The notes beneath the pieces were generated by a model, which was not told the origin of the DNA, made no database searches, and was given only the letters and a program-made list of their open reading frames with translations. From positions 1-24,547 of IMG/VR virus record IMGVR_UViG_3300034418_003125: 24,547 bases of DNA; one strand, written 5' to 3'. The translations under genes were made by a program, and so were the position numbers. This document shows positions 5,687 to 21,796 of this stretch, piece after piece (the stretch's first letter is position 1; every line of letters starts with the position of its first letter). This stretch comes from a virus.

Positions 5687-5787
5687 TAATGCGATGATTC
5701 GGATTGCGCCCGATAGCAAATGATTAACTTAATGGCTTTTTTTGAAACTTGTAGCGCAATTGCAAGGAGTAAAAGAAAGCCTTTTTT
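5687..5787 (+). ncRNA. Structured leader or small RNA upstream of the HNH gene
   Basis: About 100 bases between an exact -7 promoter element and the HNH start codon. Visible structure: ATTGCGC (5703-5709) is complementary to GCGCAAT (5754-5760), and GGCTTT (5734-5739) pairs with AAAGCC (5776-5781) in an imperfect long stem enclosing CTTG/CAAG, followed immediately by six T (5782-5787). The two pairings overlap in space, so they may be alternatives or a pseudoknot. The hairpin plus T-run is terminator-like, so the region could make a discrete ~100-base RNA or attenuate the HNH gene. Not matched to a known RNA family. Confidence 0.4.
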
Positions 5788-5792
5788 ATTTT

Positions 5793-7092: not shown

Positions 7093-7477
7093 AAAAAGCT
7101 TATCGGTTTATCAAGATGACCTTACTATGGAGTGCGTTAAGTTTAACTGCGCTAAAATATTAACTGCATTTAAGGGATTAGATACTAATTTTACTAACTT
7201 ACTGGCTGAAAGTTTAAAGCGTAACGGATTTACAGACCAGCGTTTAACCGATGCAGTAAACTATGTGATTGATAACTGCCCTTATCCATCGCCCAGTGTT
7301 GCTGAATTTGTTAAATTTGACAAAAGCGTAAAGGTTTATTCGTATGATGAAATGATTAAACTGGGTTATGGCACAGAGCCTTTTAAAAAAGTAAGGCTAA
7401 ACCAAGAGCAAGAGAAGCCGTTATGGGTGTTTGCGAGTGATTACGAGAAATATGGACTTAAAAAATTTGAGTGGTAA
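7025..7477 (+). CDS. Replication-associated protein, candidate helicase loader
   Basis: 150 residues, mainly helical in the first 100, with a segment (FTDQRLTDAVNYVIDNCPYP then SPSVAEFVKFD) resembling small phage proteins found next to replisome organisers and sometimes described as helicase-loader-like (G39P type). That role is inferred mainly from context. The ATG at 7025 follows AAATAAACAAA and overlaps the preceding gene by 68 bases in another frame; an alternative start at 7127 (MECVKFN) would remove the overlap but has a poorer leader. Confidence 0.5.
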   Translation: MEKIGDKLALKTLTSLSNGTLDEKSLSVYQDDLTMECVKFNCAKILTAFKGLDTNFTNLLAESLKRNGFTDQRLTDAVNYVIDNCPYPSPSVAEFVKFDKSVKVYSYDEMIKLGYGTEPFKKVRLNQEQEKPLWVFASDYEKYGLKKFEW

Positions 7478-7674
7478 TGGCAACAATAAAACAGATTTCA
7501 CTAATTGAGCCACAAATGGCTATCTTTGTAATTAAGAAGCTACTGCACCAAGTAAATGATGAAGCCATAAGCCAAGCTATTAGCAAACTAAAGGATGAAG
7601 ATTTCGAAGAACTGGTCAATATTTTGATGTGGCTGGGATATGAAGAAAAAACAATTAATCAAATACTAAAATAA
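7477..7674 (+). CDS. Small hypothetical protein
   Basis: 65 residues, helical, acidic in the centre (DEAISQAISKLKDEDFEELV). The start is the ATG at 7477, which overlaps the previous stop by one base (TAATG), rather than the GTG two codons earlier. Co-translated with the replication genes; function unknown. Confidence 0.5.
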   Translation: MATIKQISLIEPQMAIFVIKKLLHQVNDEAISQAISKLKDEDFEELVNILMWLGYEEKTINQILK

Positions 7675-7681
7675 AAAAATT

Positions 7682-7867
7682 ATGTACAATAGAAAGTTTA
7701 AAAGAGGCGTAAAACCAATCGAAGACAGAACAAAGATAAAGAACGAAGCCAAATCAATAAGGTTTACACAAACAGAAAGGGAGCTTTTAGAGTCTTTTTT
7801 AGAAGCTAATGGCATAACCTTTACTGAACTGGTTAAAACTCGCTTAAAAGACATTATAGGGGCTTAA
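7682..7867 (+). CDS. Ribbon-helix-helix DNA-binding protein
   Basis: 61 residues. The C-terminal 38 residues fit an Arc/MetJ-type ribbon-helix-helix: a short strand (AKSIRFT), a first helix (QTERELLESFLEANG), a turn (ITF) and a second helix (TELVKTRLKDII). The N-terminus is basic (YNRKFKRGVK). Probably a dimeric regulator of a nearby phage promoter. Start at 7682 follows an A-run. Confidence 0.6.
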   Translation: MYNRKFKRGVKPIEDRTKIKNEAKSIRFTQTERELLESFLEANGITFTELVKTRLKDIIGA

Positions 7868-7891
7868 ATGTAATAAAATAAAAAAGAAACA

Positions 7892-8230
7892 ATGAAACCA
7901 ATAAATCACGCTTTGATAAGCCACTATTACGAAGGAATAAATAGAAAGCAATTAACTCCCGACGATTTTCGTAAATTATACAATCGAATTATCGCAGACT
8001 ATCGGCTAACGGAATACGCGAATAGTAGGAACGCTGATACGGTATGTATCCGTCAAGCTATAATGAAGATAGCAAAAGAAAAGACTAATTTAACATTGAA
8101 GCAAATTGGCTCGATTTGGGGAATTGACCATAGTACTGTTATTCACGGTCTTCGGAGGGTGGAGGATGCCCACGATACAAACGATGAAATCTATTTGAAC
8201 TGGGAGTCGGAGGTTTACAGATATTTTTAA
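7892..8230 (+). CDS. Stand-alone DnaA domain IV-like DNA-binding protein
   Basis: 112 residues. Residues ~52-95 match the DNA-binding domain IV of bacterial DnaA: IRQAIMKIAKEKTNLTLKQI, then GSIWGIDHSTVIHGLRRVED, including the DnaA signature Asp79-His-Ser-Thr-Val83 and His85. There is no AAA+ ATPase domain. In DnaA this signature reads bases of the DnaA box, so the protein may bind DnaA boxes in host or phage DNA, either to recruit/mimic the initiator or to block it. It sits in the replication block with the genome's AAAAGAAACA leader. The domain call is strong; its action is inferred. Confidence 0.75.
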   Translation: MKPINHALISHYYEGINRKQLTPDDFRKLYNRIIADYRLTEYANSRNADTVCIRQAIMKIAKEKTNLTLKQIGSIWGIDHSTVIHGLRRVEDAHDTNDEIYLNWESEVYRYF

Positions 8231-8241
8231 AAACTAAAACA

Positions 8242-8655
8242 ATGGACATACAAAAACTAACAGATAGCGAGTTAAGCACTTTGATTAAAGAGTGCAGGTT
8301 AGAACTTGAGCAACGGAAGCAGAGCCTTGAGGATGTACTACTGGAAGACGATTTTCAAAAGTATAAAAGCAAGTATGCACGACTAACTTTATTCTACGAC
8401 TTTTGCAGAGGTGTTTACTCGGTTACTGAAAGCGAGTTAAAAGAAAAGAATCAAAGCAAGAAAAAGCGCAATATTAGAAACGCAGTTATTAACTACTTGC
8501 TTTCGGAGGGTTTTAGCCATCAAGACATCGTGGATGAGTTTGATTTAGCACGAACAAGTTTAAGCAGTCCGATTAGCTATCACGAAAAGTACTACAAGCT
8601 TGACAAGAACTACACAGATATTTTTGAGGATGTTAAACAATTTTTTGAGGATTAG
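8242..8655 (+). CDS. Helix-turn-helix protein, possibly a diverged DnaA domain IV relative
   Basis: 137 residues: an N-terminal charged coiled-coil-like region (ELSTLIKECRLELEQRKQ), then a helical domain at ~75-137 (NIRNAVINYLLSEGFSHQDI, VDEFDLARTSLSSPISYHEK). The second part lines up helix by helix with the DnaA-like protein encoded just upstream (IRxAxxxxxxxxxxxxxxDI, then a recognition-helix-like Arg-Thr-Ser segment, then a similar acidic tail), but the Asp-His-Ser-Thr-Val signature is lost. Relationship is inference from reading. Starts 11 bases after its neighbour. Confidence 0.5.
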   Translation: MDIQKLTDSELSTLIKECRLELEQRKQSLEDVLLEDDFQKYKSKYARLTLFYDFCRGVYSVTESELKEKNQSKKKRNIRNAVINYLLSEGFSHQDIVDEFDLARTSLSSPISYHEKYYKLDKNYTDIFEDVKQFFED

Positions 8656-8657
8656 AT

Positions 8658-9299
8658 ATGGCAACTAATAAGAGAAAATGTAAGGAATGCCAAAAGGTGT
8701 TTGAAAAGAAGCAACCACTACAATACGTTTGCAGTCCTATGTGCGCCATAAACTATGCCAAGAAAAAGGAGAAGTCTAAATGGCAAAAGGAGAAGAAACG
8801 GCGATTAATTGACCTTGAAAGCGTAAGCGGTGTTCAATCAAAGTATATCCAGCCAAAGGTTAACGAGTTAGTAAGAATAATTGACAATGGATTACCTTGC
8901 ATTGCAACTGGCAACTTTGGAAAGATGGCTGCTGGTCATTATTACCACGCTGGTGGTCATAGTCAAATAAGATTCAACCTGCATAACATTCACATCCAAT
9001 CATTTCAGTCGAATAGTTTTAAAAGTGGCGATGCGCTAAATTATAGGCAAGGCATTATAAATACATACGGAGAAGAATATATTGAATTTATGGAGTCGCT
9101 GAAACAAACACCAATAAACGACCACACAAAGGTTTTCTACCTTGAGTTAAACAACAAGCTAATAGAAGTAAAAAAGTGGCTTAAAACGCAAATAAATGGG
9201 CAAATGCAAGATGTTTCCAATAGAATACAACTGCGAAACGAAGTAAACTTGCTATTAGGAATTTATGAAAGGGAATATTGCATATTTAAAAACGCATAA
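8658..9299 (+). CDS. ninG: NinG/Rap-type recombination protein
   Basis: 213 residues of the lambda NinG (Rap) family, structure-specific recombination nucleases acting on Holliday junctions and D-loops. An N-terminal zinc-finger-like set is complete (Cys8, Cys11, Cys25, Cys29). The conserved core is present: NGLPCIATGNFGKMAAGHYY, then HAGGHSQIRFNLHNIHIQS and SGDALNYRQGIINTYGEE, with its His/Asn residues. It starts two bases after the previous stop and ends one base before another nuclease. Fits with the Rad52-like protein and exonuclease upstream as a full phage recombination set. Confidence 0.85.
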   Translation: MATNKRKCKECQKVFEKKQPLQYVCSPMCAINYAKKKEKSKWQKEKKRRLIDLESVSGVQSKYIQPKVNELVRIIDNGLPCIATGNFGKMAAGHYYHAGGHSQIRFNLHNIHIQSFQSNSFKSGDALNYRQGIINTYGEEYIEFMESLKQTPINDHTKVFYLELNNKLIEVKKWLKTQINGQMQDVSNRIQLRNEVNLLLGIYEREYCIFKNA

Positions 9300-9785
9300 A
9301 TGATTAAATTAGAAATAAGCAACAGTCAATATAGCCGAGCAAAAGAACTTTATGAATTTAAAGTATTGAAAAATTCAATAAAAAAAGGCGAGGGGAATAT
9401 ATTTGGTGCTATTGGTGAAATAATGGTAAACGATTACTTTATAGGCAAGGGTGCCAATGTAGATTTAAATCAAACATATGACTACGATTTAATAATTAAC
9501 GGATTTAAGGTTGATGTAAAATGCAAGGCTACTAATTATGAGCCAAAAGATTATTTTAATGCCGTTATTCCAGCTTACAATCCACATCAAAAGTGCGATT
9601 TTTACTTTTTCACTTATGTAACTTATAATTTTAAGACCTGCTATTTAGCTGGATATAAAAAAAAGCAAGATTTTTTTAAGGAATCAAGGTTAGCTAAAAA
9701 AGGAGAAATTGATGTAGGAAATTGGAAGTTTAAAACAGATACTTATGTATTGCAAATAGCTGATTTGATTAAATTCAAGCAATAA
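9300..9785 (+). CDS. PD-(D/E)XK nuclease
   Basis: 161 residues with a clear PD-(D/E)XK core: Glu40 (FGAIGEIMVNDYF), Asp63 (YDYDLIINGF), then Asp72-Val-Lys74 (KVDVKCKATN). The rest of the fold follows with beta strands (CDFYFFTYVTYN, TCYLAGYKKK). Related proteins include Holliday-junction resolvases and restriction-like endonucleases. Being directly next to ninG suggests a recombination or resolution role. The gene is more A/T-rich than ninG, which may indicate a different origin. Confidence 0.65.
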   Translation: MIKLEISNSQYSRAKELYEFKVLKNSIKKGEGNIFGAIGEIMVNDYFIGKGANVDLNQTYDYDLIINGFKVDVKCKATNYEPKDYFNAVIPAYNPHQKCDFYFFTYVTYNFKTCYLAGYKKKQDFFKESRLAKKGEIDVGNWKFKTDTYVLQIADLIKFKQ

Positions 9786-9812
9786 AAAAGTAAATAAATC
9801 AAGTAAAAACCT

Positions 9813-9820
9813 TATCTTTA
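9813..9820 (+). promoter_or_regulatory. Possible promoter for the SSB-like gene
   Basis: TATCTTTA, one mismatch to TAnnTTTG, lies in the 73-base gap before the SSB-like gene. The same bases form a small hairpin (CCTTA...TAAGG), so the element is uncertain. No -33 TTG is seen. Confidence 0.3.
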
Positions 9821-9858
9821 AGGAACTCAAACAATTAAATAATTTAAACTAAAAAATT

Positions 9859-10161
9859 ATGGCAAAACTATTAACTGGAAGTATTAACCTTTCAAAAATT
9901 GACAAGACAAAAATTGTTGACCGAGATAAGAACGGCAATCCGTTTGAGAATAACGCAAAGTATTTGAACGTGGTAGTATGGATAAACGATGAATTAGATA
10001 ACTACGGTAATAAGGCGTCAATCCAAATAGGTCAATCTAAGGAGGAAAGAGAAGCTGGGTCAAAATCCATTTACATCGGAAACCTAAAAGAGCCACAAGG
10101 CAGAAATAACGAGCCAACAAGCACAAGAAGCGCACAAGTTGCTGATGACTTGCCATTTTAA
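9859..10161 (+). CDS. Single-stranded DNA-binding-like protein
   Basis: 100 residues. The body has OB-fold-like strands (YLNVVVWINDELDNYGNKAS, IQIGQSKEER, KSIYIGNLK) and the C-terminus ends ADDLPF, the acidic SSB tail that recruits replication and repair proteins. At 100 residues it is shorter than host SSB, and the match outside the tail is modest. It would protect single strands made by the exonuclease. The start follows AACTAAAAAATT. Confidence 0.6.
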   Translation: MAKLLTGSINLSKIDKTKIVDRDKNGNPFENNAKYLNVVVWINDELDNYGNKASIQIGQSKEEREAGSKSIYIGNLKEPQGRNNEPTSTRSAQVADDLPF

Positions 10162-10165
10162 AGAT

Positions 10166-10264
10166 ATGAAACAGATAGATAGATGGCTAATAGCCTTATA
10201 CATCATTATGCTTTATATGACGTATGAAGTAAACCGATTAATAAAGGGTAACTTTTTTAACTGA
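10166..10264 (+). CDS. 32-residue membrane peptide
   Basis: A short open frame starting four bases after the SSB-like stop, encoding a peptide with one strongly hydrophobic segment (WLIALYIIMLYMTYEV) flanked by basic residues at both ends. Typical of small phage single-pass membrane peptides. Function unknown. Supported only by position and composition. Confidence 0.4.
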   Translation: MKQIDRWLIALYIIMLYMTYEVNRLIKGNFFN

Positions 10265-10302
10265 TGTGCATAACTTGAGAAAATAAAGAAAGTAATATTT
10301 GT

Positions 10303-10310
10303 TATATTTA
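10303..10310 (+). promoter_or_regulatory. Possible promoter between early and late regions
   Basis: TATATTTA, one mismatch to TAnnTTTG, in the non-coding gap before the packaging genes. A TTG at 10275-10277 is 25 bases upstream, longer than the usual spacing. Confidence 0.3.
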
Positions 10311-10332
10311 AGCCGATTTGATTTGGTTAAAT

Positions 10333-10372
10333 GAGTAGGTGTTTGAGGTGAGACTTTGCACCTGCTCTTTTT
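10333..10372 (+). terminator. Strong terminator or attenuator before the packaging genes
   Basis: GAGTAGGTG (10333-10341) pairs with CACCTGCTC (10359-10367) in a 9-bp stem with one G-T pair, a 17-base loop, and five T afterwards. The loop holds a second copy of the left arm (GAGGTG, 10345-10350) that could compete for the same 3' arm. It ends the early transcript or controls read-through into the terminase genes. Confidence 0.75.
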
Positions 10373-10390
10373 AAGTTTAAGAAATGGCAA

Positions 10391-10672
10391 ATGTTTACTT
10401 TAGATGATTTTGAGGAGTGTGCTGAGTTTATATTAGAATATGGTGTTTATATCGCTTTACTGGTGATGGATTGGCTTGAAAAAGAGGAACGATACGAGGA
10501 GTGCGAAATAATATACTTAACGATTTTAATAATGAACTTATCGAACGACTGGAATCTGCCAAGTAAACTAACGGAAACAACATTTGAAGAGTTATGCGCT
10601 ATGACTAATCAAGATAGAGACGAAGAAGATTATAGAATGGTAGCGTACGAGATAATTAAAAGCATTGAATAA
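10391..10672 (+). CDS. Small acidic hypothetical protein
   Basis: 93 residues, very acidic (DDFEECAEFILEYG, TNQDRDEEDYRMV), with a hydrophobic helix (VYIALLVMDWLEKE) that is probably buried rather than membrane-spanning. It follows the terminator at 10333-10372 and precedes the terminase genes. An ATG at 10384 in another frame stops after seven codons, so the ATG at 10391 is used. No family recognised. Confidence 0.5.
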   Translation: MFTLDDFEECAEFILEYGVYIALLVMDWLEKEERYEECEIIYLTILIMNLSNDWNLPSKLTETTFEELCAMTNQDRDEEDYRMVAYEIIKSIE

Positions 10673-10673
10673 G

Positions 10674-11081
10674 ATGGCAGCACCTAAAGGAAATAAATTT
10701 GCACAGAAATGGACTGAAGAAACTGCGTTAAGTAAGATTAACGAGGTGCTAAAATACTGCAAGGATAACCCTAATAATTATCATTTAGGATATGCGCTAA
10801 TAGAGTGCGATGTTTACCCAGATTGGTGGGCATACATAGCTAATACCTACGAGGATAATGAAGAAGTTTTTAGAGCAATAAAAAAGGTAGAGGTATTATT
10901 AGAGCAAAGAATAATAAATAGCACCTTAACTGGAGATATAAAAAGTGCAGCTATGGCAATATTCTACCTAAAAAATAAACACGGCTATAAAGACAAGCAA
11001 GAGGTGGATAACACCAATAGAACAGTAGAGCCTACGCAATACGTTATCGTAAATGATAGAAATACTAACACATCAAGCTGA
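10674..11081 (+). CDS. terS: Terminase small subunit
   Basis: 135 residues upstream of and overlapping the large terminase gene. The N-terminus (MAAPKGNKFAQKWTEETAL) is typical of phage small terminases; a helix-turn-helix-like segment follows (YALIECDVYPDWWAYIANTY) and the C-terminal helices (LEQRIINSTLTGDIKSAAMA, IFYLKNKHGYKDKQE) match the oligomerisation part of this family. It recognises the phage packaging site and stimulates the large subunit. The ATG at 10674 is preferred to a TTG three codons earlier. It overlaps the large subunit by 29 bases. Confidence 0.75.
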   Translation: MAAPKGNKFAQKWTEETALSKINEVLKYCKDNPNNYHLGYALIECDVYPDWWAYIANTYEDNEEVFRAIKKVEVLLEQRIINSTLTGDIKSAAMAIFYLKNKHGYKDKQEVDNTNRTVEPTQYVIVNDRNTNTSS

Positions 11082-12249
11082 GTTCCTTAAGAGCAACGCA
11101 GTACATACTGGATTAGTTGCTGGTTTCGGTAGTGGTAAAAGTATCGCAGCTACGATTAAGACTATTGAAAAGAAAAAGCAATACCCGAATATTTCGGTAG
11201 CTTATTATCTGCCTACTTACTCCCTAATAAAAGACATCGCATTTCCTAACTTTGAGAAGTACCTGCAAATGATGGGTATAACTTACGACCTTAATAAGTC
11301 GGATAAAGAGTTTAACACCGAATATGGTAAGATAATAATGAGGTCAATAGATAGTCCCGAGTACATAATCGGCTACGAGGTAGGTTATAGCTTAATAGAC
11401 GAAGCAGATATTCCGCCAAAGGACAAAATGCGCCAAGTGCTAGTCAATGTAGTAGCAAGGAATAGAAAAAAGCTACCTAACGGAGAGCATAATAGTTTAG
11501 ACTTTGTAAGCACTCCCGAGGGGTTTAGGTTTATGTACGATTTTTTCGTTAAAAATAAGGATGAAAATAGAGTGTTGGTTAAGGCGAGAACAAAAGACAA
11601 CCCATATCTGCCAAGTGCATACATTGAGACCTTAAAAGGCATCTATTCGGCTACGGAATTAGAGGCTTATTTGAATGGCGAGTTTGTAAATATTACAAGT
11701 GGAAACGTTTACTATGCTTTTGATAGGGTAAACAACCATTCGGATAGAGAAGCGCAAGAGGGCGATATATTGCACGTTGGTATGGACTTTAACATTAATC
11801 AAATGTGCGCTATTGTAAACGTGATAGATAACGGAGTAGCGACTGCAGTAGCGGAGTATATCAATTACTATAACACCGATGCAGTAGCGAGTAAGATAAA
11901 GCAAGACTTTCCTAATAACCGAGTAATAGTGTACCCAGACGCAAGTGGAAAGAATAGAAAAACCAGCGCAGCGGAAACTGATATTAACATCCTCAAAAAG
12001 TATAATTTCGGGATTAAGGCACTAACGAGCAATCCATTTGTAAGGGATAGAATTAACACAATGAATAAGGTTTTTGAAAATAAAATGGTATTCATAAATA
12101 CCTATAAATGCCCTATCTTTACAGAGCATTTAGAAACGATAGGCTATAAGAACGACGAGCCAGACAAAAGCATTAACCATAGTACAGATGCGATGGGTTA
12201 TTTCGTTTGGTATAATTACGGAAAGGCTAAACCTAAAGTGTATCTATGA
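11053..12249 (+). CDS. terL: Terminase large subunit
   Basis: 398 residues with both terminase domains. ATPase: Walker A GFGSGKS (24-30), Walker B YSLIDEAD with Asp116-Glu117, and coupling motif STPEG (153-157). RNase-H-like nuclease: Asp245 (GMDFN), Asp296 (VYPDAS) and Asp379 (STDAMGYF), the expected metal-binding set. It cuts concatemeric DNA and drives it into the prohead through a portal. The length is at the short end for the family but no motif is missing. The portal gene that usually follows is absent from this window. Confidence 0.93.
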   Translation: MIEILTHQAEFLKSNAVHTGLVAGFGSGKSIAATIKTIEKKKQYPNISVAYYLPTYSLIKDIAFPNFEKYLQMMGITYDLNKSDKEFNTEYGKIIMRSIDSPEYIIGYEVGYSLIDEADIPPKDKMRQVLVNVVARNRKKLPNGEHNSLDFVSTPEGFRFMYDFFVKNKDENRVLVKARTKDNPYLPSAYIETLKGIYSATELEAYLNGEFVNITSGNVYYAFDRVNNHSDREAQEGDILHVGMDFNINQMCAIVNVIDNGVATAVAEYINYYNTDAVASKIKQDFPNNRVIVYPDASGKNRKTSAAETDINILKKYNFGIKALTSNPFVRDRINTMNKVFENKMVFINTYKCPIFTEHLETIGYKNDEPDKSINHSTDAMGYFVWYNYGKAKPKVYL

Positions 12250-12401
12250 TGGAGTTAGAGGCGCAAATATTAGAACTAATTGAAAAACTAAACGACTGCC
12301 CTAACTTAAGGGATGAAAATAAGTTGTATAAACTACTTGGAAAAATAGAAAATGAACGAATACAGAATAACGGCAAACGGCAAAGAGAAGAAAATAGTTA
12401 A
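12246..12401 (+). CDS. Small hypothetical protein between terminase and tail genes
   Basis: A 51-residue open frame (50 residues if the second ATG at 12249 is used), starting with ATGATG that overlaps the terminase stop and ending inside the next gene (50-base overlap in another frame). The peptide is acidic then basic and helical (MELEAQILELIEKLNDCPNL). The tight coupling to terL and the coherent composition suggest it is real. Function unknown. Confidence 0.4.
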   Translation: MMELEAQILELIEKLNDCPNLRDENKLYKLLGKIENERIQNNGKRQREENS

Positions 12402-13068
12402 GCTTCCGACTGGCAGACACGAGGTAACTCTTGAACAATGGAATAACGCTTACAAGTATGTAGAGTTAGCCGTAGAGGCGAATAGACTATTTGAAGAGGG
12501 TAAACTTGAGAAAAGCCAAGCAAAGGTAATAGAGTCAATGTGCGGCACCATCGCAGCGTTAGGCGAGGGCATCACATACGAGGAATTACTGAACGTGGAG
12601 TTTAACAAGATTAATAACTTGTTCTTGATTCAGTTTGGCTGGTTAAGTGAAGAAAAGCCAAAGCGCAACTTTAAGATTAAAGGCAAGAAGTTTAGTGTGC
12701 CGAAATTTGAGCAGGGTACTTGTGGGGACTTTATGGATGTAATGAGTTTATTGGCTATGCACGAAGAATATAACGATGCAGAAAAAGGATTGCTTATTGC
12801 TGCGGTTTATATGCGTAACGGAGAGTACTATCAAGACCTTGAGGAGATTAATCAGCGCATTGAGTTCTTGAAGAAGTATGGCAGAATGGATTTATTTTAC
12901 TCCGCCGCTTTTTTTTTGTTGAGTTCGTTGAGGAGTTACAAAATAGACACCCAGCGACATTCGGCAGTAGTAAGGGAAATGGAAAAGCTAACAAGTACCT
13001 TAGTCAGTTGGGCTACTATCCTCTTTTCGCAAGTGTCGCAGAGGCTGGAGTCTTTTCGTACAACGTAG
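12352..13068 (+). CDS. Tail-assembly-chaperone-like protein, zero-frame product
   Basis: 238 residues as read without frameshift. The first ~187 look like one coherent protein (ANGKEKKIVKLPTGRHEVTL, EQGTCGDFMDVMSLLAMHEE, YYQDLEEINQRIEFLKKYGR) and by position and architecture resemble the G-type tail assembly chaperones of siphophages. After a run of nine T (12909-12917) the zero-frame sequence turns Ser/Arg-rich and low quality for its last ~50 residues, while the -1 frame continues as a convincing protein. The zero-frame stop at 13068 may be the short form. Alternatively the gene carries a real or sequencing frameshift. Confidence 0.6.
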   Translation: MNEYRITANGKEKKIVKLPTGRHEVTLEQWNNAYKYVELAVEANRLFEEGKLEKSQAKVIESMCGTIAALGEGITYEELLNVEFNKINNLFLIQFGWLSEEKPKRNFKIKGKKFSVPKFEQGTCGDFMDVMSLLAMHEEYNDAEKGLLIAAVYMRNGEYYQDLEEINQRIEFLKKYGRMDLFYSAAFFLLSSLRSYKIDTQRHSAVVREMEKLTSTLVSWATILFSQVSQRLESFRTT

Positions 13069-13178
13069 CGTGGTGGAAGTTTTGGCGAAAGGATTTAAAC
13101 AGATTTGACCAAGTGCTAAACACGAGATTAGATGAGGTTATGGCTTTTATAGAATATAAGAGTGCATCGGCTCAATAA
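12864..13178 (+). CDS. -1 frame extension of the chaperone gene (GT-type fusion)
   Basis: Open in the -1 frame from just after a stop at 12861-12863 to the TAA at 13176-13178, without its own good start. From 12918 it encodes 86 residues that look like real protein (FVEELQNRHPATFGSS, YLSQLGYYPLFASVAEAGVF, SYNVAWWKFWRKDLNRFDQV). Joined by a -1 shift in the T-run, the product would be 275 residues. This mirrors the G/GT arrangement of siphophage tail assembly chaperones, where the rare fusion protein loads the tape measure. A T-run can also cause transcript slippage. Confidence 0.65.
   Translation, partial: VLEEVWQNGFILLRRFFFVEFVEELQNRHPATFGSSKGNGKANKYLSQLGYYPLFASVAEAGVFSYNVAWWKFWRKDLNRFDQVLNTRLDEVMAFIEYKSASAQ
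12907..12918 (+). promoter_or_regulatory. Programmed -1 frameshift slippery site
   Basis: Zero-frame codons GCT TTT TTT TTG contain two overlapping perfect heptamers (T TTT TTT and T TTT TTG) in the correct register for -1 slippage. No obvious downstream stem-loop was seen. Confidence 0.6.
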
Positions 13179-13219
13179 TTAAAAAATTTGTAATTTAGAA
13201 TAGTTAAATTTACCGAGAT
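13179..13219 (+). promoter_or_regulatory. 41-base leader of the first tail gene (promoter-like)
   Basis: An A/T-rich gap containing TAAATTTA (13205-13212, one mismatch to TAnnTTTG) and ending ACCGAGAT before ATG. It has the same length and nearly the same 3' end as the gap at 21975-22015. A TTTG at 13187-13190 is only 14 bases upstream, so the -33 assignment is unsure. Confidence 0.4.
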
Positions 13220-14866
13220 ATGAACTTGCTTGAGTTAAGGAACAGAATAAGAGATAAAGCCATAGATAATGGTCTTACTTATACAGAGATAGAAACACTT
13301 TTCGATGTCAACTTATTGTTAGAGCAGACTATGCCTTGCCTTATGTGGCGTTATAGTGGCGAAACTAATAACTTTGACGAAGTAGGCACAGAGATGAGCC
13401 TAAATGTTTACTTGATAACGACGTTTCCCGATAGCGTACGAGTAGAAACAGACACCTATCAACGTGATTACATAGTTACCCAACAAAATGCGCTTAGAAC
13501 GTATTTTTACAACTGGCTGCAAGCTATGCCGTTTGAGAGTGGAGATGATTATTTAGAGATAATTAGCACAGAGGAAATTCCAATAGCTGAAAGGTTAGGT
13601 ATAAATGAGTTTTTAACTGTTGATTTTAGGGTAAATATTTCCATTAAGAGAGATTTCTGTGTAGACCCAGAACAAATAGCACCAACACCAAGCCAAGTGC
13701 AAGTGTACTTTAACGATGTGTTAAGATATACCCAAGCTTGTAACGTGGATTTAGAACTTATCTTAAAGAATCAAAATGGCGATTTAATCAACGATGCTAC
13801 ATTTACTGGATATGAGATAGTAGTAACACAAGGCGGTGGTCAAGTGACCATAAATATCAATGGCGTTTTATGGGATGTTATAGACGCTGGAGAAACCGAG
13901 AACATTATTGTAAGGCAGAGCAGCGGCTCAACTCAAGTAGGTGCTATACAAGGTCAATACTACCGCATAGCAGATAGCGTTATAACTTTAGAAGATGCTT
14001 TAGGTGCAACATTAAGCACAACGAATGTAAAAGCCGAAAACCCTGCGACAATAGTAGCACCAAGTGCAAGAGTAAGTAATAGTGATGATAGCTACGATGT
14101 TAACGTGGCAAGTGGTGGAGATTTAGAACTACCCGATAGTCAAATAAATGTCAACGGAAGTAATGAGGGAAATGTAGTAAGCGTCAAAACTATTGATGTA
14201 AACATAACAGATGGCACAAATCCAGTAGTACCCGATGCAGTTAGTTTAAGTGGAAATACATTAGATATAGAAGTTTCTTTTCCTTTACCGCCAGTGGGTG
14301 CTACACTCATAAAAACTGGTCAAACCACAAGTTATAGAACTGGCGATGATGGAGATTTAGAAGAAGGTAGAGCAACTGACTTTTTAACATTAGCTTCAAA
14401 TAATCCATTTGGAAATACCAATAGATTTACTGATGAATTAGGTGGTGTTGCGTATGCGAATGATATAGTAATAGATTGGAGTACTTATAATGGTACGAAT
14501 GTTTTAGGTTATTATAGAATACCTTTACCAACTAATAATTGGGCAAACCAAATAGATGCTTGTTTGGCATTATCTATTTCAACATTTACAAGTGCTTGGA
14601 GAATGGCAAACTTTAAAGAATTTGATAATATCCATAGCAAAGATGATACACTTTTTAGCGGAAGATTTGATGCTTTAAACTATACGCCCTTTAATATAAG
14701 TTTAGGAAATTACCTATGGACATCAACAAGCCGAGACGCAAGTTTTGCAATTGGATATTTACTTAATCCGTTTGGTAGTTTTGGCATAGCATTATTAAAC
14801 AAAGGAAATAGTTATCAATGTATTGCAGTCCGAACATTCACAGTAACTGGAACAACTTTAACATAA
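13220..14866 (+). CDS. Tail protein with C-terminal DUF1566/C-type-lectin-like domain
   Basis: 548 residues in three parts. Residues 1-150 look like a tail completion/terminator-type domain (LLEQTMPCLMWRYSGETNNF, MSLNVYLITTFPDSV). Residues ~155-360 are beta-rich, Gly/Asn/Asp-rich repeats (DVNVASGGDLELPDSQINV, VSLSGNTLDIEVSFP). Residues ~363-540 match the DUF1566 (Lcl C-terminal) C-type-lectin-like domain: KTGQTTSYRTGDDGDLEEG, AWRMANFKEFDNI (460-471), YLWTSTSRD (498-506) and YQCIAVRTF (532-540). This fold is used for receptor binding and is a known target fold of diversity-generating retroelements. The last third differs from the first in codon style, suggesting domain exchange. Probably host recognition at the virion surface. 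Confidence 0.65.
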   Translation: MNLLELRNRIRDKAIDNGLTYTEIETLFDVNLLLEQTMPCLMWRYSGETNNFDEVGTEMSLNVYLITTFPDSVRVETDTYQRDYIVTQQNALRTYFYNWLQAMPFESGDDYLEIISTEEIPIAERLGINEFLTVDFRVNISIKRDFCVDPEQIAPTPSQVQVYFNDVLRYTQACNVDLELILKNQNGDLINDATFTGYEIVVTQGGGQVTININGVLWDVIDAGETENIIVRQSSGSTQVGAIQGQYYRIADSVITLEDALGATLSTTNVKAENPATIVAPSARVSNSDDSYDVNVASGGDLELPDSQINVNGSNEGNVVSVKTIDVNITDGTNPVVPDAVSLSGNTLDIEVSFPLPPVGATLIKTGQTTSYRTGDDGDLEEGRATDFLTLASNNPFGNTNRFTDELGGVAYANDIVIDWSTYNGTNVLGYYRIPLPTNNWANQIDACLALSISTFTSAWRMANFKEFDNIHSKDDTLFSGRFDALNYTPFNISLGNYLWTSTSRDASFAIGYLLNPFGSFGIALLNKGNSYQCIAVRTFTVTGTTLT

Positions 14867-14875
14867 AAAATAGAT

Positions 14876-15118
14876 ATGGCAACTTACAAATTTGAACAAT
14901 TTAAGTTAGAAATAGACAATCCAACTATCTCGGCTAATAAAGATAGCATCCATCTACAAGTGAATAAGAACACTATTAGCGTGGATGTCACATTGCAAAC
15001 GGATGGTGCGAAGTTTGGAGTCCATTTAACCGAAATAAAGGTTAACAATTTGAACTATGAGGGTTATGACAACTTAATGGAAAGAGTGCTGAACAGATTA
15101 AAGGATTACGAAGTATGA
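14876..15118 (+). CDS. Small structural-block protein, unknown
   Basis: 80 residues, mostly beta strands (YKFEQFKLEIDNPTISA, IHLQVNKNTISVDVTLQTDG) with a C-terminal helix. It lies between two tail-region genes and overlaps the next one by four bases (ATGA). A virion accessory role is likely by context; no family recognised. Confidence 0.5.
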   Translation: MATYKFEQFKLEIDNPTISANKDSIHLQVNKNTISVDVTLQTDGAKFGVHLTEIKVNNLNYEGYDNLMERVLNRLKDYEV

Positions 15119-15513
15119 GCCAACTTGGGGACTTTTTGAAAAAAGCCATTGAAGAAGAAATGGAGTTCAACAAGCGTTTAGCAAGTGGCGAGTCAGTTGC
15201 AACGCTTCGAGAAGAAATAAAGGACGAACATTTACTTATTTATGGTGTAGATTATTGGGATGAAATTAACAACGGAGTACCTTCTGGTACTTTAGTGGAT
15301 ATAGAAGATTTGAGAAGCTGGGTAAATGCAAAGAGTCAAAGATATGGCGGTACATTTCCGCCTATAACGGCAATACAGAGAAGAATATACGCTAAAGGAA
15401 GTAGTACACCTAAAGAGAAGTTAGACATTATTCCAAAGGTAATAAAAAAGAATCAAGCAGAGATAACAAGACAAGCGGAAAACTACGTTACAAACTTTTT
15501 AAAATTAAGATAA
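15115..15513 (+). CDS. Putative neck/tail-completion protein
   Basis: 132 residues, helical N-terminus (LGDFLKKAIEEEMEFNKRLA) and a C-terminal part with the stretch WVNAKSQRYGGTFPPITAIQ followed by RRIYAKGSSTPKEKLD. This resembles small head-tail connector or tail completion proteins (HK97 gp10-like), where basic helices contact neighbouring subunits. The call is tentative. Its stop is one base before the next start. Confidence 0.4.
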   Translation: MSQLGDFLKKAIEEEMEFNKRLASGESVATLREEIKDEHLLIYGVDYWDEINNGVPSGTLVDIEDLRSWVNAKSQRYGGTFPPITAIQRRIYAKGSSTPKEKLDIIPKVIKKNQAEITRQAENYVTNFLKLR

Positions 15514-15514
15514 A

Positions 15515-15781
15515 ATGAGCATAGCAAGTATTAAAGCAAAGATAGCAGAACTTGAAGTTGATGCAGCAAACTACGAGGCAGCAGTGGCTCAAGAAACTGC
15601 GATAACTGGACAGACAAGTGGAACTATCACTATAAATGAAGAAACATTCACAACGGATGGCGCAGAGTTTATTGATGTACGAGATGAAAAGATAACCGCA
15701 TTGCAAAGCACTCAAGCATCTTTAATAACGAGTATGGACACTCTATGCGATGAAATCATTGTTTTATTAGCAGCATTATAA
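15515..15781 (+). CDS. Small helical protein of the tail block
   Basis: 88 residues: helix (SIASIKAKIAELEVDAANYE, Ala-rich), a short beta segment (TSGTITINEETFTTDGAEF) and a second helix (LITSMDTLCDEIIVLLAAL). Looks like a small coiled-coil virion accessory protein. It sits two bases before the next gene. Function unknown. Confidence 0.45.
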   Translation: MSIASIKAKIAELEVDAANYEAAVAQETAITGQTSGTITINEETFTTDGAEFIDVRDEKITALQSTQASLITSMDTLCDEIIVLLAAL

Positions 15782-15783
15782 TT

Positions 15784-16935
15784 ATGGCGATAGCATTAAC
15801 AACACAACCAACGACAGACGGATTATATTCGGCTTATTTACCAGTTAAGTTTGTAGCAACTGAAACTACTAACGACCCAGCGTATTTAGAGTTTGAATTA
15901 AAGACACAAGCAGGTGCATCTATTCCTAACGTACCCAAGTACCGAGCATTAAACGTAAATAATACATTTACATTTGATGCCTCTAACTATTTAAAGTCTA
16001 TTCTAAACGTGTTTACTACGCAGGGGTATAGCACAACTGCCATAGAGCATTTAGATGACTTATATGGCAAATATGAGGTCGAAGTGACTGACCCTATCAA
16101 CTCGCTAACGGCATTAACATCAAATGAGTTTTATGCTTTTGCCAATATTGACGGCTTAAGATACTCAAACGACCAAACTGCAAACGATGGCATAAACCGA
16201 AAAGGTATGCTTTATGGCTCGGAGTTATTTAATGGTAGCTTTGCGCCTAAATATCAAGGTGCTTATGATAGGTGCGTAGTGTTTGCTCAAAGTCCAGAGA
16301 TTAGCATCGTAACGTATGATGCGGATAAGCCTAACCAATACACCACACCGAAACAGTTTGCCGAGATAGATATTTCAAGCTGGACAAATAGGCTAATTAG
16401 TGTACCTTTAAATAGAACATTTTTAGCGACCAACGCACTTGTGCCGCCAAGTAGTACTCCACTATCGAAATACGCAGGATTTAAAGCAAGTCACGCATCA
16501 TTGGGCGATATGTACTACTATGTTGAGGACAGATGCAAGGTAAACGAGTTTATGTTTATTAACCGATACGGAGTTAAGGAGAATATCAAGTTTGAAACCT
16601 ACGATTATGAAAGCGTTAAGACATCAAGTGAAAGTTATTTGGTGGGTGGTTACACTCATACTGGTAACACTAACTTTTTTAATACATCAGCTAACAACGT
16701 AAAAGTAAACCAGTCAATCGTTGAGGATTATGAGGTGCGTGGTAACTTTTTTACAAGCAGACATAAGGGCGAATTGCAAGATTTTGTGAGCAGTCCGTTA
16801 CAATGGGTAGTGGATAATGGAGAGTTAAGACCTATCAACGTGCTGGATGGTAGCTTCAAGTTAGTTGAAAAGTCACGAGGTATAGATTTTAATTTCAAAT
16901 ACAGATACGCACAAACAAAACCAAGTTTTAAATGA
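15784..16935 (+). CDS. Structural protein, probably tail or baseplate
   Basis: 383 residues, beta-rich throughout with few charged helices, as in virion proteins. A stretch near the middle (YYYVEDRCKVNEFMFINRYG then VKENIKFETYDYE) resembles proteins encoded next to tail genes in other Bacteroidetes phages. No enzyme motif seen. Its stop overlaps the start of the 647-residue gene (ATGA), so the two are co-translated and may form one complex. Exact role not determined. Confidence 0.45.
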   Translation: MAIALTTQPTTDGLYSAYLPVKFVATETTNDPAYLEFELKTQAGASIPNVPKYRALNVNNTFTFDASNYLKSILNVFTTQGYSTTAIEHLDDLYGKYEVEVTDPINSLTALTSNEFYAFANIDGLRYSNDQTANDGINRKGMLYGSELFNGSFAPKYQGAYDRCVVFAQSPEISIVTYDADKPNQYTTPKQFAEIDISSWTNRLISVPLNRTFLATNALVPPSSTPLSKYAGFKASHASLGDMYYYVEDRCKVNEFMFINRYGVKENIKFETYDYESVKTSSESYLVGGYTHTGNTNFFNTSANNVKVNQSIVEDYEVRGNFFTSRHKGELQDFVSSPLQWVVDNGELRPINVLDGSFKLVEKSRGIDFNFKYRYAQTKPSFK

Positions 16936-18875
16936 TAACATTTAACGGAATAGAACTTGACTACAAAGAGGATGCGCTGAGCGGTTTAGTTATTAAGGGC
17001 GGTTTGACCAAAATTGAAAACCTCACGGATAGAACTGGAACTGCATCTACTCAATTTACCCTACCAAGAACGGCTAAAAACGAATTAGCATTTGGCAACA
17101 TTACAACAGAGGGCGCACAAACGCAAACAAGCGGAGAGGCTTACATTACTATTGAGGGTAATATCTTTAGCAAAGGTGTGCTTTATGTTACTGGCTACGA
17201 TAACTACAATTTCAAGTGCTTGTTTATGGGGCAGGATAACGACTTAATTAAGACTTTAAGGAATAAACCATTTTGGAAATTATTCCCAAGCGACCAGCAA
17301 TTTATTTATAATGACGCAAATATTAAAACCGCATTAGAGGCAGTTATCCCAAAATCATTAGGTACTGATATAAGTTTTAATTTTGCCAATCCATTTTATG
17401 AACAATTATTCCCAACTCCATTAAGTGCAGAAAACTCTGCGCCATTTTTTAGTTTAAAGCACTTGGTTTATAAAGTATTATCGGATGAGGGATACTCTAT
17501 GGTATCTAACTTTTTTGATTCCGATTATGGAGAATCAATTGTTTATTCCGATTTTAGTGGATTTTCTTTATGCCATAATGGTTTTGAAAATAGTGGAGAG
17601 CAAATTCCATCATCAAGTCCAACGGCTACAATTTACACATATAGCTACCCTAATTATCAAATACTTGATTTAGGAACGGCATTAACAAATAACGTAATGA
17701 CAGTTTCTACTTTTGCTAATGGTAAAAGTTACCAACTGGATAGAAATATAAATAAACTTAAAATAAAAGGTCAAATAACTTGCGAATTAGGCGAGTTAAA
17801 TAGCGCACAGTTATTTATAGATATATGGAATAGTTTTGGAGTAAATAATAGATATACAACCAATCAATTAACTGGTGTAGGTAATAGTTTGCAAAATGGA
17901 ATAAACACATTTTCTCTTGATTTAGATTATAGTTTTAGTTCTGGCGAAATTATTACATTTGGAGTATTTTTAGATACGAATGCAAGTTATCCATTAACAG
18001 AAGCAAGTATAGTTGTAGATAGATGTTCGATAAGTTATGATAATATTGCCCAAGGAGATGCAGTTAGTTGGGCTGATTATGTTAGCAATTTTTCACAGTT
18101 AGATTTTTTAAAAGGCGTATTAAAGCAATTTAATTTAGTTTTGCAAATTGAGGGAGATAAGGCTTATATTGAGCTACAAGATGAGGGAACAGAGCCAATA
18201 GGTGCAAGTCCAGCATCATTACCAAGCATAACGATTGAGCAATATAATTTAGATAGCATCGTATTAGATGAAACGGTAACGGATATAGAATACTTGCAAG
18301 GCGATTTAATATATTTAAAACAAAACATAGAAAATGATTTATATATTAAAACAACTCAACTATTACCTTATCAATCCTATGGAAGTTATTTGTATAATTT
18401 AAATACATTTAATAGTTCTAATGTTGAAACTGTGGAAAGTTTTTTTAATTGTCTTTATGATTCGGTTAGCAGGTCTACAAGAGATGGTAATTTCGCAAAA
18501 AATTATCCATATTTGGCTGATGAGCCAACATCGTGGAGTAAGGTTTTGTCTTTAAGATTTGATTGGAGAAACAACGTATATGATGGTACTGATAACATAA
18601 ATTACACTAATAGCGATACAACCACAACGAATATAGATGCTTTAATAACTTGGAGCGAGCCAGTTATGATAGGTAAAGTTTTAAATGGATTATTTATCAA
18701 CACCCTAAACCAAAAGAAAAACAACAAGATAATAGAGGTAACATTTAAAGACGAGTTAGGTACAATCGTTAGCAATAGACGAGAGTACATTTACAAAGAC
18801 CAAGTCTACAAAATAGTGGAGTGGTCTTACGATATTATTAAACGATTAGTGAAAGCTAAATTAATTATGAAGTAA
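16932..18875 (+). CDS. Tail hub/baseplate-like protein with inserted beta-sandwich domain
   Basis: 647 residues. The N-terminal region (IKGGLTKIENLTDRTGTAST, QFTLPRTAKNELAFG) and the C-terminal end (IVEWSYDIIKRLVKAKLIMK) look like a tail-hub protein contacting the tail tube. Residues ~230-372 (LTNNVMTVSTFANGKSYQLD, FSLDLDYSFSSGEIITFGVF) look like a jelly-roll beta-sandwich of the carbohydrate-binding type, and this middle section is more A/T-rich than the ends. It ends TAATG, overlapping the tape measure start by one base. Placement just upstream of the tape measure is unusual for a hub protein. Tentative. Confidence 0.45.
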   Translation: MITFNGIELDYKEDALSGLVIKGGLTKIENLTDRTGTASTQFTLPRTAKNELAFGNITTEGAQTQTSGEAYITIEGNIFSKGVLYVTGYDNYNFKCLFMGQDNDLIKTLRNKPFWKLFPSDQQFIYNDANIKTALEAVIPKSLGTDISFNFANPFYEQLFPTPLSAENSAPFFSLKHLVYKVLSDEGYSMVSNFFDSDYGESIVYSDFSGFSLCHNGFENSGEQIPSSSPTATIYTYSYPNYQILDLGTALTNNVMTVSTFANGKSYQLDRNINKLKIKGQITCELGELNSAQLFIDIWNSFGVNNRYTTNQLTGVGNSLQNGINTFSLDLDYSFSSGEIITFGVFLDTNASYPLTEASIVVDRCSISYDNIAQGDAVSWADYVSNFSQLDFLKGVLKQFNLVLQIEGDKAYIELQDEGTEPIGASPASLPSITIEQYNLDSIVLDETVTDIEYLQGDLIYLKQNIENDLYIKTTQLLPYQSYGSYLYNLNTFNSSNVETVESFFNCLYDSVSRSTRDGNFAKNYPYLADEPTSWSKVLSLRFDWRNNVYDGTDNINYTNSDTTTTNIDALITWSEPVMIGKVLNGLFINTLNQKKNNKIIEVTFKDELGTIVSNRREYIYKDQVYKIVEWSYDIIKRLVKAKLIMK

Positions 18876-21796
18876 TGGCAGAAAAAGTAATAATAGACAT
18901 AGAGTTAAAAGGATTGGGCGATGCTAAAAAAGGTCTTGATGATTTGACTAAACAACAAATTGCACAACAAGATGAAATAAAAAAGACTACCGCCGAAATT
19001 AAGGAGTATGAAAAAGAATTAGCATCACTCCGAAAAGAGCAAGAGGCTGGAGGTCAGTTAACGGATGAGCAGATAGCAAGAGAGCAAGAACTAACGGCAA
19101 ATATCCAAACAAGCAAAGTAGAATTAGCAAGTCAAAAAGATGAGTTAAGCAAAGTAAATGCAGAACGTAGAGCGGCAGTTAAAGAGGTAGACCAGTATAA
19201 CACCGCATTAAATGCAGAACTTGGCAGTAATGAGCAATTAAAGGCGCAATTAGGCATCTTAACAAAGGAGTATAACTCGTTAAGTGCAGAGCAAAGGGAA
19301 AACACCGATAAAGGTCAGCAACTTACTACGCAAATAAAGGACATCACGGACAAGCTAAAAGAGAACGAGAGCGCAGTAGGCGACAACAGAAGAAACGTAG
19401 GAAACTACTCCGAGTCTATTCAAGACGCTTTAGGCAACGTGACAATCTTCGGCACTAATTTAAGCGGTCTTACAAAAAGTTTTCAGCAAACTAAAGAAGC
19501 CACGTTAGCACATATTAAGGCATTAGTAATGACTGAGGGTGTACAAAAAACGCACACCGCAGCGACTAACTCACAAACGGCAGCGCAGAAAGCGTTGAAC
19601 GTAGCGACATTAGCAGGCAAAGTAGCAATGAACGTGTTTAAACTTGCTTTGATTGCTACTGGTATAGGTGCATTTGTGGTAGTGGTAGGAAGTTTAGTAG
19701 CTTATTTCCAAAGCACAGAACAAGGTGCGATGAAACTTAAAGTTATTATGGCTGCATTGGGCAGTGTTACTGCTAACATCACAAGCAAAATGGCTGACTT
19801 TGGGAAGATTATTTTTGATGCGTTTAACAAAGTTAAAGAGTTAAAAATTAGCGACGTATTTAAGAAAATTGGGGATGCCATACAAAAGAACATAATGAAT
19901 CGAATAGAGGCATTGGGTTTAGCAGGTAAGGCTATCGTTAAAATATTCAGCGGAGATATGAAAGAGGGTTTTAAGGATTTAAGCAACGCAGTGGCGCAGG
20001 GTGCTACTGGAATACAAGACCCAATAGGAAAATTAGAAAAAGCGGGAGAAAAAGCAGTAGAAGTATTTGAAAAAGGCAAAGAAGCAGTCAAAGAGTTTGC
20101 AGCAGAGGTGGCAGCAGATGCAAAAAAAGCGGCAGCACTACAAGAGAAAGAAAATGCGTTAGTATTTCAGCGTAGAAACTTGCTAAAAGAAAATGCACAA
20201 ATAGAGGGTCAAGTAGCGCAGTTAAGAGCAGATGCAGCGGATAAGGCAAACCTATCACAAGAGGAAATAATAGCCAAGTTAGAGGAAGCGAGTGCATTAG
20301 AATCTAAAAAGTTAAAGAATTTAACAAAAATCGCACAGACTGAATTTGACATCCAAAAGGGTAGAAGTCAATTAGCCACAGATAGTGCAGCAGAAGCCGA
20401 ACAATTAGCACAAAAAGAAATAGCACTTTTACAAGCACAAGCAAATGAAAAGAGTGGGATAGTTAGACTTGAAAAACAAATAGCGGCAGAGCAATACGCA
20501 CTACAAAGAGAAAATTTAGCAGCACGATTAAAACTAATTCAAGCGCAGGGCGGAGACGATGTAGCTACTTTAATAGAAATAGAAAAGAACAAACGAGAGG
20601 CGCAGTTAGCCGAAACAAGTTTAAGCGAGCTGGAACGCCAAGCAGTTATAGCAGAGAGCGAAAAGAAGATAGCAGACTTAAAGTTAAAAGGATTAGAGGA
20701 AGAAGAACAACAAAGAAAAGAAGCGTTAGAAAATGAGTTAGCAGATTTAGACTATCAGCAGTTTAGAGAGTTAGAACAAGCTAACCTAACGGCTGAAGAA
20801 AAGTTAGCGATTGATAGAAAATACCAAAAACAAAAAGCCCAGTTAGAGTTAGAGTCATTAACTAATCAAGCTACTTTAATTAAAGCGCAGTTAGAACAAA
20901 TAACGGCAGATACTGGGCAGGGATTGATACCGCCATTAACACCCGAAGAAGAAGCACTACTTAAAAAGCAATTAAATGAGATTAACACTCAAATGCTTAC
21001 AATCGGTCAAACAATTAACGGAATTGATGAGGAAGAAGCAGGACTTAATTTATTAAATGGATTAGGTTTAGATGAAGCAGGTCAAGAAAAATTAAACTTT
21101 GCAATAGATACTGTAAAATCATCTATTTCAAGCATAGGTGCATTAATGGCATCTATAACCGAACGGAATAAAAAGGTAATTCAAGAGCAAGTAGAGGCAG
21201 GAGTAATAAGCCAAGAACAAGCAGATAAAAAACTTGAGCAAATTGAACGTAAAGCGTTTAAAAGACAAAAAGCTATACAAATATCAACGGCAACGGCAAA
21301 CGCTGCTCAAGCGGTATTAGCAGCACTTGCACAAACTACTGACCCAACACCTACCCAAACATTAAGAATTGCAAACGCAGCAGCAATAGGTGTACTTGGT
21401 GCAGTTCAAGTGGCAACGGTAGCAGCGCAAAAGTTCCAAGATGGTGGACTTATTCAAGGTGCAAGTCATTCACAAGGTGGAGTTCCGTTTAGTGTCGCTG
21501 GTCGTGGTGGATTTGAAGCAGAGGGTGGCGAGTATATCGTAAAGAAAAGCACAGTAGATAGCTACGGCGTGGATTTTATGAACGCTTTGAATAATATGCG
21601 TATCCCGAAGATGTTTGCTGAGGGCGGATATATAGCACCTACTCCAACGGGAACGATAAGCGACCAAGTAAGCAGAGGAGTAAGCGAGTTAGTTAGTGCA
21701 AACGAAAATAGACAAATGCAAGTAATTAACGTAGAGCAAGATTTTACTAAACTACAAACAAAAGTATTAAATGTTGAACAAGCAAGAACATATTAA
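18875..21796 (+). CDS. Tape measure protein
   Basis: 973 residues, the longest gene in the window. It is mostly coiled coil (residues ~10-180 and ~430-720), with a hydrophobic segment at ~250-277 (LIATGIGAFVVVVGSLVAYF) and a second Ala-rich one at ~805-855. The C-terminal part has the typical tape-measure FQDGGLIQGASHSQGG and FEAEGGEYIVKKS pattern. Such proteins set tail length and may help DNA entry through the membrane. At about 1.5 angstrom per residue this would give a tail near 145 nm, indicating a long siphophage-type tail. Overlaps the next gene by 26 bases. Confidence 0.9.
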   Translation: MAEKVIIDIELKGLGDAKKGLDDLTKQQIAQQDEIKKTTAEIKEYEKELASLRKEQEAGGQLTDEQIAREQELTANIQTSKVELASQKDELSKVNAERRAAVKEVDQYNTALNAELGSNEQLKAQLGILTKEYNSLSAEQRENTDKGQQLTTQIKDITDKLKENESAVGDNRRNVGNYSESIQDALGNVTIFGTNLSGLTKSFQQTKEATLAHIKALVMTEGVQKTHTAATNSQTAAQKALNVATLAGKVAMNVFKLALIATGIGAFVVVVGSLVAYFQSTEQGAMKLKVIMAALGSVTANITSKMADFGKIIFDAFNKVKELKISDVFKKIGDAIQKNIMNRIEALGLAGKAIVKIFSGDMKEGFKDLSNAVAQGATGIQDPIGKLEKAGEKAVEVFEKGKEAVKEFAAEVAADAKKAAALQEKENALVFQRRNLLKENAQIEGQVAQLRADAADKANLSQEEIIAKLEEASALESKKLKNLTKIAQTEFDIQKGRSQLATDSAAEAEQLAQKEIALLQAQANEKSGIVRLEKQIAAEQYALQRENLAARLKLIQAQGGDDVATLIEIEKNKREAQLAETSLSELERQAVIAESEKKIADLKLKGLEEEEQQRKEALENELADLDYQQFRELEQANLTAEEKLAIDRKYQKQKAQLELESLTNQATLIKAQLEQITADTGQGLIPPLTPEEEALLKKQLNEINTQMLTIGQTINGIDEEEAGLNLLNGLGLDEAGQEKLNFAIDTVKSSISSIGALMASITERNKKVIQEQVEAGVISQEQADKKLEQIERKAFKRQKAIQISTATANAAQAVLAALAQTTDPTPTQTLRIANAAAIGVLGAVQVATVAAQKFQDGGLIQGASHSQGGVPFSVAGRGGFEAEGGEYIVKKSTVDSYGVDFMNALNNMRIPKMFAEGGYIAPTPTGTISDQVSRGVSELVSANENRQMQVINVEQDFTKLQTKVLNVEQARTY

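Follow-up and report, generated by a model that had tools for sequence, protein, structure and literature searches.

The C-terminal tips of the T4 gp37 and lambda Stf fibre proteins swap between phages, and in both cases a chaperone gene (gp38 and Tfa, respectively) lies downstream. A chaperone requirement is also described for Alteromonas phage V22 (PMC7289586). Phage recombinases of the annealase type join and exchange diverged phage DNA (PMC3945230). A second route to variable phage proteins is the diversity-generating retroelement (DGR), among whose targets DUF1566 is the commonest named domain (PMC6642488), and in Bacteroides phages the DUF1566 targets are diversified over their last 35 residues (PMC8143477). 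DUF1566 is also found in the Legionella surface adhesin Lcl, whose C-terminal domain (Lcl-CTD) forms a trimer and binds sulphated glycosaminoglycans without Ca-binding lectin motifs (PMC11162425). Here we describe a phage gene that combines elements of these systems. The stretch of DNA analysed, referred to as the window, is one whole IMG/VR virus record of 24,547 bases, and its features are collected in Table 1. We consider it likely that the product of the gene at its centre is a modular protein with which a siphophage of Bacteroidota type binds its receptor, that the tips of this protein are renewed by recombination and that they are served by a dedicated partner encoded downstream. The protein would consist of a constant anchor (probably tail-terminator-like), a shaft of variable length and a DUF1566 tip with a varying core.

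Table 1. Features of the window. Positions are counted from its first base; empty cells, nothing reported.
Feature	Position	Strand	Basis or remarks
Rad52/Sak-type single-strand annealing protein	3129-3746	+	PF04098, E 2.7e-9; phrog_3290, E 1.5e-6
Exonuclease, likely partner of the annealase	3791-4702	+	phrog_5715, E 4.3e-27
Small and large terminase	10665-12249		
Tail/fibre protein (anchor, shaft and DUF1566 tip), 548 aa	13220-14866	+	ORF with ATG start; identical or nearly so in L001 and L002
Anchor, residues 1-165, probably tail-terminator-like	13220-13714	+	99-100% conserved between strains; low-confidence alpha/beta model; same position as ARB25_6
Shaft/linker, beta-type repeats, length strain-dependent	13715-14290	+	Whole protein 470-570 aa among strains with a 99-100% identical N-terminus
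DUF1566 (Lcl_C) C-type-lectin-like tip, exchange cassette	14291-14866	+	Pfam; fold model; DNA homology to unrelated phages starts at 14291 (P358)
First part of tip, conserved, residues 358-432, left homology arm	14291-14515	+	DNA 68-76% identical between otherwise different tips; mean entropy mostly 0.5-1.2 bits
Hypervariable core, residues 433-538, most variable 513-532	14516-14833	+	DNA unalignable between strains with flanks mostly 87-92% identical
Conserved tip end (TFTVTGTTLT), right homology arm	14834-14866	+	DNA identity back at 14828-14859 in strain comparisons
Obligate partner of the tip, 80 aa	14876-15118	+	After the tip in 103/103 tip loci (partly circular count); tip precedes in 138/138 loci
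Counterpart of ARB25_7 (head-tail/tail completion region)	15115-15513	+	BLASTP E 2e-6, single comparison; same gene order
Further tail genes			After the small gene that adjoins the tip gene
Tape measure gene	18875-21796		
ClpP-type head protease	22016-23107		
Protein in capsid position	23107-24282		

From its gene content the virus reads as a siphophage. The organism names listed for the 147 cultured-phage records that its tape measure protein matches are almost all those of phages of Bacteroides, Phocaeicola, Parabacteroides, Nonlabens, Flavobacterium and Croceibacter, which points to a probable host within the Bacteroidota; the terminase, at 39-41% identity to many phages, is uninformative in this respect. 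A tblastn search of 50,697 phage records found no cultured relatives of the tip or its partner. The 548-residue reading frame is not an assembly chimera, as it is reproduced in two independent assemblies that agree with the window at 100% (L001, 9.7 kb) and 99.99% (L002, 15.7 kb). Two further genes were noted. The protein in the capsid position looks as if it had received a beta-type domain by insertion, since its residues 171-263 match a major tail protein PHROG and, weakly, Pfam E1_FCCH, and the product of 5742-6329 resembles, by eye, a homing endonuclease with NUMOD4/HNH and AP2-like motifs.

An initial annotation, made from the letters alone, had assigned the C-terminal part of the protein to the DUF1566 fold. 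The motifs it quoted are all present in the reading frame, and profile searches and structural modeling confirm the DUF1566/C-type-lectin-like identity of the tip. The full-length protein gave no DUF1566 match in the Pfam scan; residues 361-548 scanned alone match Lcl_C/DUF1566 (PF07603) with an E of 0.0027, which is under the gathering cut-off. Lcl_C is matched by 22 of the 22 members of an alignment of relatives (best E 8.6e-14), none of which matches a different Pfam family at E <= 0.01. The tip domain was modelled by AlphaFold with a pLDDT of 80.9 (about 90 or more at domain residues 30-110 and 170-188). The top match of this model in the PDB is the C-terminal domain of Legionella Lcl (8q4e; Foldseek E 1.1e-3), onto which 122 residues align with a Z of 11.2 and an rmsd of 3.9, and the next-best structural matches are C-type lectin domains (Z 8-10). 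Both proteins thus carry the DUF1566 fold at the C-terminus of a shafted adhesin, but Lcl is a bacterial surface protein with a collagen shaft and is only 19% identical to the phage tip. Bacterial DUF1566 proteins in general are distant from the tip (25-38% identity over substantial matches); its relatives occupy at least 417 IMG/VR stretches. The lectin part had also been credited with a different codon style. Its GC3 is indeed lower than that of the upstream part (0.16 versus 0.30; p 5e-4), but the choice among the synonymous codons of each amino acid shows no difference between the two parts (p 0.61), and a distinct codon usage of the tip was accordingly rejected.

Comparison of strains shows that the tip is highly diversified, as the initial annotation had proposed. 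A search with the N-terminal 167 residues yielded strains that are 99-100% and about 80% identical there. The tips of strains that are 99-100% identical to the window over residues 1-165 are 39-51% identical to its tip, and shaft length differs within this group as well. The converse is also seen, as in the pairs L138/L149 and L139/L148, in which the anchors are 80-81% identical and the tips 73-75%. Over 93 distinct tips, conservation is found at both ends (the first 70 residues and the final ten), whereas residues 433-538 vary, most of all at 513-532, where the entropy is about 3 bits (up to 3.0). The tip pN/pS ranges from 0.12 to 0.59 across the pairs compared and is always below 1; positive selection on the tip was therefore rejected as a demonstrated claim, and selection for novelty is not itself shown. 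In a separate contig (L150, 2960-4157) a window-type anchor and shaft are followed by an end that, as far as it can be read before the contig stops, is not DUF1566 (KDVFIKGIFKASEAQMQSL...), which suggests that other tip types may also plug onto this anchor.

The DNA identity between the window's strains drops abruptly at shared breakpoints. On either side the strains are mostly 87-92% identical, upstream as far as 13836-14138 or 14445 and downstream from 14828-14859 onwards, with the exception of L145, in which identity just downstream of the tip is 76%. Between the flanks most pairs align at about 14310-14516 only, with 68-76% identity, and the breakpoints cluster at 14137/14445 and 14828-14859. 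In the anchor tree the 99% group forms a single clade (support 100/100), which the tip tree rejects (AU p 3e-10 for 12 strains, and 9e-56 for 34 rows after 22 further tips were added). The tip of the window groups instead with those of L026 and L027 (support 98/96), where it sits on a leader of 22-24 residues, and the DNA similarity of the window to these two phages is limited to 14291-14915 and 14291-14923, a segment that starts at Pro358 and ends within the opening codons of the gene that follows. Because the tip and anchor trees conflict, the breakpoints are shared and the nearest tips belong to unrelated phages, we conclude from these alignments that tip diversity is generated by the exchange of whole tips through recombination. 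If tips instead diverged in place, by point mutation under strong selection and with no exchange between phages, the relative excess of amino acid changes that close pairs accumulate in the tip (pN/pS 0.24-0.59 versus 0-0.05 in the anchor) would be explained, but not the abrupt fall in identity at shared breakpoints between flanks of about 90%, nor the change of shaft length along with the tip; as the AU tests refute it for the strain set examined, we regard divergence in place as very improbable.

Strain L003 equals the window over 6331-14559 and then departs from it by 10 SNPs in the tip, of which 7 leave the amino acid unchanged. Read from the sequence, this pattern is a recombination mosaic and not the product of A-directed mutagenesis. 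The same two records also differ at 45 positions within 15126-15822, in the neighbouring tail genes and beside nearly identical 8 kb, which appears to be a further recombination tract. New binding specificities would be gained by homologous or homeologous recombination between co-infecting phages. The conserved start of the tip would serve as one arm, and the conserved tip end together with the beginning of the following gene as the other. Plausible agents of this exchange are encoded by the phage itself, whose Rad52-type annealase and exonuclease would probably do the joining. A point against this is that, with 68-76% identity, the homology arms are near or beyond the 12-17% divergence that is discussed for known annealases (PMC3945230).

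The initial annotation had also raised the possibility that the tip is a DGR variable protein, into the end of which a reverse transcriptase (RT) copies a template repeat (TR) with A-to-N errors. This was reasonable at the outset, as DUF1566 proteins are such common DGR targets (PMC6642488), and in those of Bacteroides phages the diversified part lies at the end of the domain (PMC8143477), where variability also peaks in the present tips. The suggestion was not borne out, and we now consider it extremely improbable. At an E of 0.01 no RT was detected in any of 122 records (the window's own and 121 related virus records, all of them fragments), whereas positive controls were detected. Neither self-BLAST nor a scan that tolerates mismatches at template adenines only found a template repeat in the window or in 102 related loci; the best 60-base stretch in the scan of the window record has 7 forbidden mismatches and 29 identities. 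Moreover, adenine-directed, non-synonymous variation is absent between the window and L003, whose tip differences are mostly synonymous, and strain differences cover the whole tip and shaft and include indels. The 'Bacuni' phages of Bacteroides uniformis (PMC8143477) resemble the present Bacteroidota phages in having a DUF1566 adhesin with a variable extreme 3' end, but they carry an RT, Avd, TR and VR, whereas here neither RT nor TR was found and the variation takes the form of whole-tip exchange.

Immediately after the tip gene (-4 to +21 bases) lies an ORF of 75-82 residues whose product mostly begins M(A)TYKFxQF. A profile of this partner matches downstream of the tip in 103 of 103 tip loci, second tandem copies included, although there is some circularity in this count, as these same ORFs supplied the profile. 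In a reverse search IMG/VR was queried with a narrow alignment of the partner alone and the best relatives were taken. This search returned 138 loci (95 distinct in sequence, 64 new), all 138 of which have a DUF1566 tip directly upstream; even the weakest of these tips, which come from loci where the sequence starts partway through the tip gene, pass an E of 0.001. In both directions, then, the partner gene is found directly downstream of the tip gene, where the known fibre chaperones are encoded. Within the window's strains the partner mostly follows the backbone, being 88-92% identical beside different tips, though in L145 it has been exchanged. The tip-partner Mantel r is 0.52 overall, but as the partner mostly tracks the backbone within strains, we make no claim of specific tip-partner pairing. 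Constant presence combined with indifference to the variable core is what one would expect of a chaperone, adaptor or cap that acts on the unvarying part of the tip, and the partner is most likely a folding or assembly chaperone or a small structural cap. It would work with many different tips by recognising the constant part of the tip. The tendency to follow the backbone could also mean that the partner has nothing to do with the tip and is a conserved component of tail or head whose gene happens to lie next to it. We judge this rather unlikely, as the linkage holds in both search directions, the partner also stands beside second tandem tips and stand-alone tips on unrelated anchors, and among its best relatives no homologue was found in a phage that lacks a DUF1566 tip.

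A chaperone-like role for the partner would place the locus beside those of T4, lambda and V22, with which it shares a tip exchanged via conserved arms and a small assembly partner downstream. The tip fold differs from theirs, however, the partner here is only 75-82 residues long, and the anchor that carries the pair in the window is probably tail-terminator-like. For the partner there is no match above noise in Pfam, PHROGs or the PDB, known chaperones included, and for want of such homology it is not filed as a Tfa/gp38-like member, only as working like one. We know of no obligate small partner of Legionella Lcl.

The identity of the anchor is less certain. The N-terminus had been called tail-completion-like, a description that remains plausible but unproven, as gene position and some structural matches favour it but residues 1-165 have no profile match. 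The anchor model has a pLDDT of 57, and about 11 of the 50 structural matches listed are phage terminator or neck chains; it superimposes on lambda gpU with an rmsd of 4.1 over 99 residues and a Z of 4.9, a value within the range of unrelated matches. An hhalign comparison with the ARB25_6 family is weak (probability 9.5%, single-comparison E 0.0034) and colinear over 123 columns. Genes 6-10 of Bacteroides phage ARB25 comprise a 136-aa gene, a 144-aa gene, two tail genes and the tape measure gene, an order that the window mirrors: the fusion gene occupies the place of the 136-aa ARB25_6, upstream of a gp10-like gene and of the tape measure gene, the 80-aa partner being an insertion into this order. 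A homologue of ARB25_6 was annotated as DUF3168-like by its depositors, and ARB25_5 does not share the anchor domain. In L005 one gene lies between the portal gene and the fusion gene. Our best guess, held with slight preference, is that the anchor is tail-terminator-like. In one contig (L156, 1293-1613) codon 107 of the anchor gene is an in-frame TAG, beyond which the frame stays open; this stop may be a sequencing error.

The window-type anchor is one of at least five kinds of N-terminus on which the same tip is found, the junction often reading PVGAT(L)xKTGQTTSYRTGDD. The commonest is a leader of 18-24 residues; the others are a WG-rich leader of 37-38 residues, a short domain (L009, L084) and a large domain of another kind (L014, L022). 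Large contigs mostly have one tip, and four (L005, L007, L008 and L015) have a tandem pair. Their order is tip1-partner1-tip2-partner2 (e.g. L005, 8001-9609), the second partner being diverged and the second tip having its own short leader, which has the same 19 residues in L005, L007 and L008. Second tip copies were considered as silent cassettes and rejected, as the window has one tip and each tip of the tandem pairs elsewhere has its own start and partner. A broader reading, which we offer tentatively and hold to be slightly on the doubtful side, is that the DUF1566 tip and its obligate partner of about 80 residues form a two-gene mobile specificity cassette that circulates by recombination among many environmental Bacteroidota phages, on at least five unrelated anchors, one of them tail-terminator-like, so that receptor-binding fibres would be placed at the neck end of the tail.

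Such a location bears on what the tip does. Ig-like decorations occur on phage parts such as the neck region, and if the anchor is tail-terminator-like, the DUF1566 domain may lie near the neck, far from the tail tip, and could be a decoration or weak surface adhesin that does not determine host specificity. We think this unlikely, because specificity-determining tips typically show both a hypervariable core between conserved flanks and wholesale exchange, which generic decorations usually do not. The proposal of a receptor-binding, diversified protein is strongly supported by the fold, the variable core and the exchange of tips, from which we infer receptor binding itself.

In phages DUF1566 has been known mainly as a DGR target, and here the same fold, again most variable at that end, is diversified by whole-tip exchange without a detectable DGR. 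Exchanged adhesin tips with a helper encoded downstream were already known; what is new is the strict linkage of this tip to a partner of about 80 residues. Across hundreds of uncultured phages, the tip-partner rule can serve as a simple marker of the gene that likely determines specificity, and how the tips fold or are mounted can be tested through the constant partner. Should the anchor be a tail terminator, the receptor-binding module would sit in an unusual place. The exchanged tips probably let related viruses change what they stick to without dedicated mutation machinery.
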